Source of the DNA: Alphaproteobacteria bacterium
GTDB taxonomy: Bacteria > Pseudomonadota > Alphaproteobacteria > UBA9219 > RFNS01
Assembly: GCA_009927055.1 (NCBI GenBank)
Contig: RFNS01000292.1
Span: 1 to 32,350 of the forward strand
Reading direction: 5' to 3'
DNA: 32,350 bases
Below the pieces are notes generated by a model that was given only the letters and a program-made list of their open reading frames with translations, was not told the DNA's origin and searched no databases. The translations under genes and the position numbers were made by a program. Below, one piece after another: positions 6,427 through 28,486 of the stretch. Every line of letters begins with the position of its first letter. Within the stretch, counting starts at the first letter, position 1.

Positions 6427-7212
6427 ATGAGAGCCATGGCCATTGGAGCGACAGGAATGCTGGCCCAGCAGCTGAATGTCGAAGTCATCTCGAACAACAT
6501 TGCCAACATCGGCACCAGCGGCTTTAAGCGCCAGCGCGCCGAATTTCAAGATTTGCTGTATCAAAACGTGCGCCAGGTCGGCGCCCAAAGCTCGGATACC
6601 GGGTCGATTGTGCCCACAGGCATTCAGGTGGGCCTTGGGGTGAAAACCGCCGCGGTGTACCGCATCAGCGAGCAAGGCAACATCAACGTCACCAACAATC
6701 AGCTCGATCTGGCCATCAACGGCAAAGGTTATTTCCAAATCACCATGCCCGATGGCACCACCGCCTATACCCGCGCAGGATCATTGCAGCTCGACCCCTC
6801 AGGCCAGATTGTGACCGCCGATGGTTATGTGGTGAACCCCGCGCTGACCATTCCTGCCGACACGCTGGAAATTACAGTCAACCCCAGCGGCGAAGTGCTG
6901 GCGAAGCAAGATGGACAAACCGCGCTGACCAACATTGGACAAATCCAGCTGGCCACCTTCCCCAACGAAGCGGGCCTGGAAGCGATTGGTGATAACCTGT
7001 TGCGTGAAACAGCGGCCAGCGGCAGCGCCACCACCGGCAACCCGCAAAGCGCCGGCTTTGGAAAAATTATTCAGGGCAGTCTTGAAAATTCTAACGTCAA
7101 CATTGTGTCTGAAATCTCGAACCTGATTACGGCGCAGCGGGCGTATGAAATGAACTCGCGTGTTATTCGGGCGGCCGATGACATGCTCAGCACCCTTAAT
7201 CAAATCCGGTAG
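6427..7212 (+). CDS. flgG: Flagellar distal rod protein FlgG
   Basis: FlgG builds the distal rod that spans the periplasm. The protein is 261 residues, the standard length. The N terminus (MRAMAIGATGMLAQQ) and the rod motif (SNNIANIGTSGFKRQ, about 23-37) are typical. The core shows YTRAGSLQLDPSG, and the C terminus carries the NSNVNIVSEISNLITAQRAY block. The ATG at 6427 has a strong AAGGAG ribosome site 7 bases upstream, so the longer frame from 6364 is rejected. It lies in the operon between flgF and flgA and follows flgF closely. Confidence 0.97.
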   Translation: MRAMAIGATGMLAQQLNVEVISNNIANIGTSGFKRQRAEFQDLLYQNVRQVGAQSSDTGSIVPTGIQVGLGVKTAAVYRISEQGNINVTNNQLDLAINGKGYFQITMPDGTTAYTRAGSLQLDPSGQIVTADGYVVNPALTIPADTLEITVNPSGEVLAKQDGQTALTNIGQIQLATFPNEAGLEAIGDNLLRETAASGSATTGNPQSAGFGKIIQGSLENSNVNIVSEISNLITAQRAYEMNSRVIRAADDMLSTLNQIR

Positions 7213-7218
7213 GGCGTG

Positions 7219-8328
7219 ATGGTGAGGTTCTTGAAAAACATCCTCCAGCCAAAAAGCCGTCATTCCGGCCAAGCGAGCGTCGCGAGCGCGAGGCGGAATC
7301 TATGGCCCAGCAATCGGATGGCTGGGGGATGGATCCCCGCCTTCGCGGGGATGACGATCACGATAGTGTTAGCCATCACTCTATTCGCCTTTTCCACGCA
7401 AGCCGCAACACCCACCGACGAAAAACCCATCATCACGCTGCAGCCCGTGGCCGAGATTGAGGGCGATACGGTGATGCTGTCAGATTTATTTTTGGGCCTT
7501 GCGCCCGAACAAGATAAGCCGCTGGCTGCCGCCCCCGAACCTGGCAAGCAACGTGTTTATCATGTCCTTACCCTCGCGCGTCTTGCGAAAGCCAACCGCC
7601 TTGCCTGGCGCGCCGCCACCATGAGTGATCAGGTGCTGGTCAAGCGCCGCGCGCAATCGCTGGATGCCAGAACCGTTGAGACGATCTTGATGAACGCGCT
7701 GAAGGAAAAAGACGCGGGCGATGATATCACCCTGCATATGGATCAGCGCGTGGCCGATGTGCTGCTGCCCGCGGGCGATGCGCCGCAGCTGACCCTGAAC
7801 AGCCTGAATTATGATGCCGCGCTGCGCCGCTTCACGGCCGATATGACCGCCACCACGGGCAAGGTTTCGCGCAAACTGCTTTATTCGGGCCGCGTCACAC
7901 CCATGCAAGAGATTCCGGTGCTGGCACGCAGCATGACACTCGGCACCATCATCACCGCGTCCGATCTGACATGGATCAAAACCACCGCCGATCGCGCCGC
8001 CGGCCTGATGACCGATGCCACCCAGCTGGTGGGGCAAGAGTTGCGCCGCAATCTGGCCGAAGGTCAGGCCCTGCGCTTGCGCGATGTGGCCATGCCACGC
8101 CTGGTTAAACGCGGACAAATGGTGACCATGCGCATCGCCTCGCCCATCATGTCGATGACGGCGCGCGGCGTGGCCCAAAGCGATGGCAGCGCCGGCGATC
8201 TTCTGCGCCTGCAAAACACCCAAAGCAAACGCGTGGTGCAAGGCGTGGTGCAGCCCGATGGCACGGTGGTGGTCGATATGCCCATGCCCGCACTGGCGCA
8301 GCAACGCCCATCAACTGTGATCCGATAG
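7219..8328 (+). CDS. flgA: Flagellar P-ring assembly chaperone FlgA, with repeat-encoded leader
   Basis: FlgA is a periplasmic chaperone for P-ring (FlgI) assembly. The protein is about 369 residues. Its C-terminal SAF-type region (about 215-345) has the usual IPVLARSMTLGTIITASDL, QLVGQELRRNLAEGQALRLRD and VKRGQMVTM signatures. The signal peptide core (TIVLAITLFAFSTQAA) is not at the N terminus: codons 14-46 before it are encoded by a 99-bp palindromic repeat (7258-7356) including the phrase WIPAFAGMT. GTG (7216) and ATG (7219) are adjacent, just after the flgG stop. An ATG at 7351, inside the repeat end, would give a signal peptide without a basic n-region. The true start is therefore uncertain. 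Confidence 0.92.
   Translation: MVRFLKNILQPKSRHSGQASVASARRNLWPSNRMAGGWIPAFAGMTITIVLAITLFAFSTQAATPTDEKPIITLQPVAEIEGDTVMLSDLFLGLAPEQDKPLAAAPEPGKQRVYHVLTLARLAKANRLAWRAATMSDQVLVKRRAQSLDARTVETILMNALKEKDAGDDITLHMDQRVADVLLPAGDAPQLTLNSLNYDAALRRFTADMTATTGKVSRKLLYSGRVTPMQEIPVLARSMTLGTIITASDLTWIKTTADRAAGLMTDATQLVGQELRRNLAEGQALRLRDVAMPRLVKRGQMVTMRIASPIMSMTARGVAQSDGSAGDLLRLQNTQSKRVVQGVVQPDGTVVVDMPMPALAQQRPSTVIR
7258..7356. repeat. 99-bp palindromic repeat (family A) inside flgA
   Basis: The element begins with CGTCATTCC and ends with GGGATGACG, so its ends form an inverted repeat. An internal hairpin (ATCCCCGCC ttcg GGGGAT type) lies near its right end. The length is a multiple of three, and it keeps the flgA frame open. 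The left part, GTCATTCC...GGAATCTATG, recurs at 12522-12573 and, shortened, at 22401-22429. Its translation includes WIPAFAGMT, a peptide commonly produced by this class of genomic repeat in proteobacteria. Confidence 0.75.
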
Positions 8329-9120: not shown

Positions 9121-9541
9121 GGTGTCATCATGCTGATGCATTTATTTCATGGCGATCATCCCCACGCAGACAAGAACCTTGGCCCAACCCCCATGACAAC
9201 AGAGAAGGCACAACACTGCCGTGCCTGCGACGGCAGGCACCCATCACCCGCACTCAACTCTAGAAGTCACGGATGGATGATGGGCTCCTGCTTTCGCAGG
9301 AGCTTCAGTTTTTTTTCTCTCCCTGTTCTCATCACGCCTGAGGTCGACGCCGTCAGAACAGTGATGGGTTTTGTTGCCAGCGTCGGGGAGAACGGGTTGG
9401 AAAGAATGCTTGTTTGAGACGCGATGAATGATAGGGTTTCGGTTTGCAACTCTCCCCCCACGCAAACCGGAAAACGCGGGCCGGGTGGCCTCTATTCCCT
9501 CCCCACGATGCCACCCCCCGCGGTGAATTAACCAAAATTTT
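9121..9541. other. Repeat-rich spacer after flgH
   Basis: No convincing gene lies here. A 95-codon frame at 9130-9417 (plus) has a fair ribosome site (GAGGTG) but its middle third is translated repeat, so I do not call it. The spacer contains one copy of the two-hairpin repeat (about 9209-9319). It also holds two stable inverted repeats at 9440-9469 and 9475-9522, followed by a T-rich stretch (9536-9543) that could act as a terminator or form a small RNA. Confidence 0.5.
9209..9319 (-). repeat. Two-hairpin repeat (family B), copy 1
   Basis: Read on the minus strand, the element has an A-rich lead, CTGAAG, a hairpin CTCCTGCGAAAGCAGGAG, CCATCA, a variable middle, then GATGGGTGCCTGCC and a second hairpin ending GGCAGGCAC or GCAGGCAC, then GGCAGTG. 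The same order of modules occurs at 12597-12704 and 28217-28342. This looks like a REP/BIME-type mobile or structural repeat and not a coding feature. Confidence 0.75.
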
Positions 9542-12573: not shown

Positions 12574-12596
12574 TTCAAAATTCGTGAAACAGCCAC

Positions 12597-12704
12597 AGAA
12601 AAAAGACTGAATCTCCTGCGAAAGCAGGGGGCCATCACGCCTCGGTTGTCTTTGATGTTTCATGCGAGTGTTGGGTGCCTGCCTTCGCAGGCACAGCAGT
12701 ATTG
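12597..12704 (+). repeat. Two-hairpin repeat (family B), copy 2
   Basis: Modules in order are AGAAAAAAGACTGAA, hairpin CTCCTGCGAAAGCAGG, GCCATCAC, a variable middle, GTTGGGTGCCTGCC ttc GCAGGCAC, and AGCAGTATTG. It matches copies at 9209-9319 (reverse) and 28217-28342. The last third (12655-12704) is in frame with mltA and contains its likely start codon. Confidence 0.75.
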
Positions 12705-13860
12705 TTTTTTAATCGTCAAAATCTTTCCCTTCGCCGCCCTGCTGCTGCTCTCGGCGTGCGAGACAGCGCCCACAAAACCCTCGGCCGATATGACCACCCC
12801 CACTTATACGCCCGTGGCCTTTGATGACATGCCAGGTTTTGCGGCCGAGACGTGGGATGAAAGCCTGCACACCGCCTTCACCAAAAACTGCGCGCGCTGG
12901 CAAAAGAAAACGGGCGATGACGCCCTGCCGTGGCAGACCGTGTGCGCCACGCTGCCCGCCACGCACAATGCCGCCGCACTGCAACAGTGGGTTGTGCAAA
13001 ATTTTGCGCCTTTTGCCGTCACGGCGGGCAGCAATCCCTTCGGTCTTTTCACCGGCTATTATGAACCCCAAATTGCGGCCGCCCCCGCGCCTGTGGGAAA
13101 TTTCCAACACCCCATCTATGCCCGCCCCACCGATTTGGTTCAGGTTGATTTGGGCGCCTTTCGGCCCGAATGGCAGGGCGAAAAAATTTGGGGTCAGCTG
13201 ATGGGCGCGCCCACATCGCTGACGCTTGCCCCCTACCCCGATCGCGCCGCCATTGCCACGCGTTTTATGCCCGCCAGCATTTTGGGCTTTACCGATGATC
13301 CCATCGGCCTTTTTGTGCTGCACATTCAGGGGTCGGGCCAACTGCGCTTTGCCGATGGCACCATCACACGCATTGGCTATGATGGCGTGAACGGCCGCCC
13401 CTATGTGGCGCTGGGCAAGGTGTTGCGCGAGCGTGGGTTGCTGGAAGCGCCCATCAACATGCCCAAAATCCGCGCGTTTTTGGCCACCCAGCCGCCAGCG
13501 CAACTTCAGGCATGGCTGAATGAAAACCCTTCCTATGTTTTTTTCAAAACCAACGCGGGCGAAGGGCCGGTGGGCAGTTTTCAGGCCCCCCTCACACCAG
13601 GGCGCGCGCTGGCGGTTGATCCGAAAAGCATTCCGCTGGGCAGCCTGGTGTGGCTGGATGCCGCGCACCCCGACGAAGGCCAGCCGCGTCTTCAGCGCCT
13701 GATGCTGGCGCAAGATACCGGCGGCGCCATTAAAGGCATGGTGCGGGGCGATGTGTTTTGGGGCGCGGGCGAGGCCGCCGCCCACAACGCCGGCCTGATG
13801 CAAAGCCAAGGGCGCTATTTTGTGCTGCGGCCCCAAGTCACGTCGGTCGCGCCTCATTAA
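12655..13860 (+). CDS. mltA: Membrane-bound lytic murein transglycosylase A (MltA)
   Basis: MltA cleaves peptidoglycan glycan strands, forming 1,6-anhydro ends, from an outer-membrane lipoprotein position. A hydrophobic core ends in the lipobox LSAC. The MltA domain is clear: FTGYYEPQI, FVLHIQGSGQLRF, GYDGVNGRPY and PSYVFFK. The C-terminal 3D domain has LAQDTGGAIKGMVRGDVFWG, with the expected catalytic Asp. The start is unusual. The nearest in-frame ATG (12655) lies inside a family B repeat, so residues before about Phe-Leu-Ile-Val-Lys come from repeat DNA. ATG 12571 and 12463 are longer options; the latter is 4 bases after the tim44 stop. None has a strong ribosome site. Confidence 0.92.
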   Translation: MFHASVGCLPSQAQQYCFLIVKIFPFAALLLLSACETAPTKPSADMTTPTYTPVAFDDMPGFAAETWDESLHTAFTKNCARWQKKTGDDALPWQTVCATLPATHNAAALQQWVVQNFAPFAVTAGSNPFGLFTGYYEPQIAAAPAPVGNFQHPIYARPTDLVQVDLGAFRPEWQGEKIWGQLMGAPTSLTLAPYPDRAAIATRFMPASILGFTDDPIGLFVLHIQGSGQLRFADGTITRIGYDGVNGRPYVALGKVLRERGLLEAPINMPKIRAFLATQPPAQLQAWLNENPSYVFFKTNAGEGPVGSFQAPLTPGRALAVDPKSIPLGSLVWLDAAHPDEGQPRLQRLMLAQDTGGAIKGMVRGDVFWGAGEAAAHNAGLMQSQGRYFVLRPQVTSVAPH

Positions 13861-22321: not shown

Positions 22322-22400
22322 GAAACCCCGCAGAATGGTGAACTGCCGATCAGTCTAAGCTGTATCAACAATCACGTTAAGTGCATCAAGAAGAAAAATT

Positions 22401-22429
22401 GTCATTCCGGCGCATGCCGAAATCTATGG
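22401..22429. repeat. Family A repeat fragment
   Basis: GTCATTCCGGCGCATGCCGAAATCTATGG is a short version of the left-hand module of the repeat in flgA: inverted GGC-GCAT-GCC core between GTCATTCC and ATCTATGG. It sits upstream of the duplicated tRNA-end segment. Confidence 0.5.
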
Positions 22430-22441
22430 ACAGATGATGGC

Positions 22442-22506
22442 GCGAAGGCGGGAACCTGCCACAAAACCACACCCGACAATATGGTGATCCCGGATGGGCT
22501 TGAACT
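22442..22506. repeat. Direct repeat with tRNA-Lys 3' end, distal copy
   Basis: This 65-base segment matches 22555-22618 with a few differences. It contains CGCGAAGGCGGGAACCTGCC, a CACACCCGA stretch and the last 25 or so bases of tRNA-Lys including the CCA end. The rest of the tRNA is missing, so it cannot encode a tRNA. It could be an attachment-site remnant or a local duplication. Confidence 0.8.
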
Positions 22507-22554
22507 GAATGGCTTTGCTGGCAAGCATCGCGCGCCTGCAAAACATTCATTCCC

Positions 22555-22618
22555 GCGAAGGCGGGAACCTGCCACAACCACACACCCGAAAATATGGTGA
22601 TCCCGGATGGGCTTGAAC
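22555..22618. repeat. Direct repeat with tRNA-Lys 3' end, proximal copy
   Basis: The proximal copy includes the actual 3' end of the functional tRNA-Lys gene (22595-22618). It is separated from the distal copy by 48 unrelated bases. The left half carries the inverted CCCGCGAAGGCGGG hairpin typical of REP-like repeats. Confidence 0.8.
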
Positions 22619-28216: not shown

Positions 28217-28342
28217 AGAAAAACTGAAGCCCCTGCGAAAGCAGGGGCCCATCACACATCCGCTGTTCTTGAGCTTTATTTGGGTGATGGGTGCCTGCCG
28301 GAGTTTACCCTCGCGCAGGCGGGGGCAGGCACAGCAGTGCTT
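28217..28342 (+). repeat. Two-hairpin repeat (family B), copy 3
   Basis: Modules are AGAAAAACTGAAG, hairpin CCCCTGCGAAAGCAGGGG, CCCATCA, a variable middle, GATGGGTGCCTGCC ... GGCAGGCAC and AGCAGTGC. The second hairpin carries about 24 extra bases in its loop, including GGAGTTTACCC, which resembles the reverse complement of a piece of the repeat at 12548-12562. Repeat modules may therefore have been nested. Confidence 0.75.
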
Positions 28343-28486
28343 TTCTATTATCACGAAGCTTCCGCCGGAATGACGCTGGCACAAGACATTTTGTGCGTTC
28401 TCTTAACCTCAAGGCCAAATCGCCAAGTTCACTTCCAACTTTTTTCGTTGCTGCGCTGTGAACGCGCTGCGCACGGGGTGCACGGG

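Follow-up and report, generated by a model that had tools for sequence, protein, structure and literature searches.

The leader of flgA, the gene of the flagellar P-ring chaperone, is interrupted here by a palindromic element that keeps the reading frame open between the basic and the hydrophobic parts of the signal peptide. The locus therefore raises the questions of what this element is, whether it was inserted into an ordinary leader, and from which start codon FlgA is now made.

The flgA locus

The window, i.e. the whole stretch of DNA analysed (32,350 nucleotides), belongs to a 2.09-Mb draft genome (315 contigs, 97% complete). An initial sequence-only reading had described an element of exactly 99 bases with inverted ends in the flgA leader, and the relevant features are as follows.

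7210..7212, + strand: flgG stop codon, 3 nt 5' of GTG 7216 and 6 nt 5' of ATG 7219
7216..8328, + strand: flgA (flagellar P-ring chaperone; Pfam, ORF, relatives), 370 aa from GTG 7216 or 369 aa from ATG 7219
7219..7257, + strand: basic n-region MVRFLKNILQPKS of the flgA leader, original and 5' of the proposed insertion (translation, comparison of 99 leaders)
7258..7356, no strand: CGTC-REP head-to-head dimer in flgA, 99 bp, encoding RHSGQASVASARRNLWPSNRMAGGWIPAFAGMT, with ends exactly CGTC.../...GACG
7258..7302, + strand: left REP arm (CGTCATTCC-GCC stem, enlarged loop AAGCGAGCGTCGCGAGCGCGA, GGC-GGAAT, tail CTA)
7303..7328, no strand: spacer between the REP arms, 26 nt, a variable block in the alignment
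7329..7356, - strand: right REP arm, canonical, reverse complement CGTCATCCCCGCGAAGGCGGGGATCCAT, common to more than 20 genome copies
7357..7407, + strand: hydrophobic core and c-region ITIVLAITLFAFSTQAA of the flgA leader, 3' of the proposed insertion (hydropathy, 12-residue peak of 2.76)

The gene assignment was borne out by Pfam, with matches of the ORF to ChapFlgA (PF13144, 2.3e-26) and SAF (1.4e-9). The ORF contains no stop codon across the element, which separates the basic segment from the hydrophobic core in both translation and hydropathy, as first described. Given the position of the flgG stop codon, translational coupling between flgG and flgA is likely.

Structure and family of the element

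The element runs from CGTCATTCC to GGGATGACG, is exactly 99 nt long and contributes 33 stop-free codons to flgA. The CGTC tag is present at both outer ends. The right arm (ATCCCCGC-CTTC-GCGGGGAT) has an 8-bp stem, a 4-nt loop and the tail CCAT, and its translation in flgA is WIPAFAGMT. In the variant left arm the stem is bulged, the loop enlarged and the tail CTAT, so that CCA-like tails are found on both arms. The sequence of this left loop is unique in the genome (pattern search, 1 mismatch allowed); enlarged left loops of different sequence are found by alignment in several other copies. The head-to-head arrangement around a 26-nt spacer is shared with 17 other aligned copies of the genome. 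A covariance model matches the flgA dimer with an E-value of 3.1e-16, and the RNA fold of the element has a z-score of -2.36.

These features match family CGTC-1 of the CGTC-tagged REPs (Di Nocera et al. 2013, PMC3733652), and by sequence the flgA element is a CGTC-1-type head-to-head dimer. CGTC families are present in all alphaproteobacterial orders, with CGTC-1 represented in Micavibrio aeruginosavorus; RPE-6 of Rickettsia and dRS3 of Neisseria were assigned to CGTC-1, and RPE-4 to CGTC-4 (PMC3733652). The likeness to CGTC-1 extends from the terminal CGTC, the 8-bp stem starting with AT, the 4-nt loop and the CCA-like tail to the genomic habit of the family: head-to-head dimers with a spacer of 20 nt or more (about 20–100 bp), mostly intergenic, with no dedicated transposase, and with some copies in frame in genes, where they encode 20–30 residues. 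The flgA copy differs in its left arm, with the enlarged loop of genome-unique sequence. PMC3733652 makes no mention of signal peptides.

The parallel with the Rickettsia palindromic elements drawn in the sequence-only reading is closer than it had claimed, since RPE-6 belongs to the family whose features the element shows (PMC3733652). As with RPE-1, RPE-4 and RPE-6, the insertion is in frame in a protein gene, with a stop-free insert and an intact gene; unlike in Rickettsia, in-gene copies are rare here (1 of about 70) and the insertion lies in a signal peptide. The Neisseria dRS3 element is likewise a CGTC-1 member, but occurs mostly in large clusters (PMC3733652), whereas the copies here are dispersed dimers. 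REPINs, which consist of GTAG REPs mobilised by RAYT transposases, resemble the present elements as inverted REP pairs scattered over the genome. A RAYT as mobiliser is ruled out by the CGTC rather than GTAG tag and by the absence of a Y1_Tnp gene: no match to PF01797 was obtained in this genome, nor in several CGTC-rich relatives such as G006, G012, G017, G020 and G021. The number of dimer matches ranges from 0 to more than 130 per genome among relatives G000–G028 and does not track the presence of Y1_Tnp.

Copies in the genome

A BLAST search with the right arm (28–31 nt) returned 22 other places in the 2.09 Mb, with identities of up to 100% over 31 nt, most of them paired with an inverted partner about 20–30 nt away. 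Eighteen copies can be aligned end to end, with conserved ends (CGTCATYCC.../...GGRATGACG) and a variable spacer. The dimer covariance model gave 134 strand-wise matches, corresponding to about 70 places and at least 62 full-length dimers, a lower bound because 150 of 1162 candidates were scored. Similar modules had been described in intergenic DNA close by; genuine copies do occur elsewhere in the genome, whereas within the window only degenerate pieces near 22400–22618 were found.

The flgA copy is the only one of the roughly 70 that lies within a Pfam-supported gene, the others being mainly intergenic, and a search for further in-gene copies in the genome thus returned none with such support. 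Nine other long ORFs that cross copies have no Pfam support, and a tenth (WD40-like, C148) has its start codon 3' of the element.

The 99 bp might instead have belonged to FlgA ancestrally and only look like a repeat, a reading to which the lack of a known congeneric empty flgA site lends some room. The copies elsewhere in the genome refute it, almost the same right arm recurring at more than 20 places alongside at least 62 dimers, and the leaders of homologues are without the element; its probability is negligible. The element is absent from the flgA 5' ends of the homologues examined, the nearest FlgA being 42% identical, and a model scan of 95 loci found none in a flgA leader. A same-genus empty site was not found by genome scan with FlgA, and a scan with FlgG returned 80 relatives, all of them more distant. 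Because the nearest FlgA is this distant and a congeneric empty site was not found, we infer the empty site from the flanks, with ...CCAAAAAGC joined to ATCACGATA... as the probable pre-insertion junction.

Proposed insertion site and start codon

When the flanks MVRFLKNILQPKS and ITIVLAITLFAFSTQAA are joined, the hydrophobic core begins at residue 12 and is preceded by three Lys/Arg residues, as in an ordinary signal peptide. With the element in place, the core begins at residue 42 and is preceded by seven Lys/Arg and no acidic residue. In 99 leaders of FlgA homologues, the core begins at residues 2–28 (median 5), with Lys or Arg ahead of it in 98. The sole in-frame ATG, GTG or TTG 3' of the n-region in the joined flanks is GTG 7366, within the core. 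The joined flanks thus offer no start that would leave a basic leader 3' of the site, and the start used before the insertion must have been upstream, in the MVRFLKN segment.

The best explanation, to which we assign a probability of roughly three in four, is that a CGTC-1-type REP dimer was inserted in frame at the junction of basic n-region and hydrophobic core, and that FlgA is still made from its original start at 7216/7219, coupled to the flgG stop codon, with a signal peptide whose n-region is 33 residues longer and is tolerated. The added peptide is basic, lacks acidic residues and ends in WIPAFAGMT; positive charges are therefore kept before the core and Sec export should still be possible. 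The leader from 7219 would have seven Lys/Arg, a core of 12–15 residues and, as read from the sequence, a candidate cleavage site at TQA/A.

The sequence-only reading had left two alternatives, a long leader or a start within the repeat, and the long leader from 7216/7219 is the better supported of the two. Initiation at ATG 7351 (GATGACG) inside the element would make the repeat a 5' untranslated leader whose hairpin affects only expression. This codon is in frame and the hydrophobic core comes directly after it; furthermore, REPs annotated as N-terminal may in many cases lie outside the gene, with the true start further downstream (PMC3733652). The resulting product MTITIVLAITLFAFSTQAA, however, carries no basic residue ahead of the core, in contrast to 98 of the 99 homologues, and ATG 7351 sits in the stem of the right arm with poor Shine-Dalgarno pairing (-3.1 kcal/mol, compared with -6.2 kcal/mol for 7219/7222). 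The upstream start is preferred on account of these two properties, the missing Lys/Arg and the weaker pairing. The predicted pairing of the start codon itself (0.99 at 7219 versus 0.74 at 7351) does not speak for the upstream start. Initiation at 7351 would also place the start 138 nt past flgG, whereas the distance from flgG to the flgA start exceeds 79 nt in just one of 100 homologues. Finally, an in-frame, stop-free outcome is expected for 12% of the insertions of this family over all combinations of copy, orientation and phase, so that with a start at 7351 the open frame upstream would be due to chance. Initiation within the repeat is accordingly unlikely, and translation through it is favoured by the starts in the joined flanks, the predicted Shine-Dalgarno pairing, the 12% figure and the charges of the leader.

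The insertion may alternatively have damaged flgA, so that FlgA is tethered or exported poorly, or the gene is an early pseudogene; drift would have fixed such a state, or it was sampled in a single lineage. None of the homologues examined has so long a leader, and the continuous hydrophobic stretch is extended, with a 19-residue hydropathy mean of 2.13 compared with 1.62 for the joined flanks; this longer stretch (IPAFAGMTITIVLAITLFAF) could allow the leader to act as an uncleaved anchor. Against damage, the flgA ORF outside the insert is intact (323 codons, with the ChapFlgA and SAF domains), the frame is conserved, and the adjoining flgG and flgH are both intact (Pfam). We regard a damaged flgA as improbable, more so than a start at 7351, and a FlgA with an extended leader that would still be exported and cleaved as the probable outcome.

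In-frame dimers in a relative

A dimer adjacent to flgA of G021, a genome of the same order and another family, sits in frame in the leader of flgH, which reads MGKVSNRLDHVPT, RHPRACGDPSWPQKRSPVRWIPAFAGMT and AIFVALLSLTAC (the third part also given as AIFVALLSLTACNAF). The insert is absent from nine same-genus FlgH leaders. Among the 59 G021 dimers examined, Pfam-supported cases lie in frame directly 5' of the signal or first membrane segment of FlgH, LptE, SBP_bac_5, AhpC/TSA, SH3_4 and PAP2 proteins; congeneric LptE and SBP_bac_5 leaders are without the dimer, and the LptE and SH3 genes have a possible GTG/TTG start just 3' of the element. The G021 genes for which positions were recorded are listed below.

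L018 2391-3236: flgH, its lipoprotein signal peptide interrupted in frame by a CGTC dimer
L202 C87:5937-6016 and L212 C206:11302-11387: in-frame dimers in two paralogous large membrane proteins, one in each, at about the same loop position
L211 C49:11581-11664: in-frame dimer in an L-aspartate-oxidase-like flavoprotein, between the FAD and C-terminal domains

In all nine of these in-frame cases of G021, six in leaders or before first membrane segments and three in mid-gene, the right arm is read in the frame ending in GMT (WIPAFAGMT or WIPACAGMT); the other open frame is used by a single ORF, lipoprotein-like and with no Pfam match. Copies 5' of the rpoC, biotinyl-domain, rsmG, trpF, GST and TetR genes leave these genes their own start codon downstream. 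Contingency tables for G021 gave p = 0.0014 for loss of the start against exported or membrane location and p = 0.02 for the frame; both were made by hand and post hoc, with classes set after inspection, and both associations are suggestive only. When 33 genomes of the order were searched for element ends with a hydrophobic run behind them, the pattern gained no clear support outside G021: the matches spread over all three frames (15/12/7), and several of those in frame A are conserved genes unrelated to the element.

Implications

The flgA case is an intragenic CGTC-REP dimer of a kind already reported for Rickettsia and other genera. The less expected feature is its location at the border between n-region and core of a signal peptide. 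This border tolerates added length and is little harmed by an insert that is first basic and then neutral; survival there can be explained by selection on random insertions, with no need for targeting. The in-frame copies at like spots in G021, few in number and in predicted proteins, hint at a tolerated niche for such repeats. It is conceivable, if rather doubtful, that within this alphaproteobacterial order CGTC-REP dimers land recurrently at the n/h boundary of signal peptides and of first membrane segments; survivors in this niche would use the WIPAFAGMT frame (no charged residues, an n-to-h transition), the charged MDPRLRGDD frame would be selected against, and the leaders of exported proteins would be diversified. 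No description of such recurrence, and no mention of signal peptides in relation to these repeats, was found in the literature searched, of which subscription papers were mostly not part.

A widespread repeat class can thus lengthen an export signal while sparing the gene, and the flgA case points to where selection admits such repeats into coding DNA. Start-site annotation is touched as well, because the repeats translate as WIPAFAGMT-like peptides at annotated N-termini. If general, the signal-peptide niche would allow a simple comparative test of what lets some repeats persist inside genes.

Other repeats in the window

Degenerate CGTC-REP pieces at 22400–22439 and 22547–22565 adjoin a 65-bp direct repeat (94%) at 22441–22505 and 22554–22618, the two units being 113 bp apart. 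A second dispersed repeat of about 120–130 bp, 77–91% alike in parts, is present at 9210–9327 (- strand), 12588–12705 (+ strand) and 28219–28352 (+ strand); its CCTGCGAAAGCAGG core is palindromic and its GGTGCCTGCC part conserved, and it stands outside the CGTC family.
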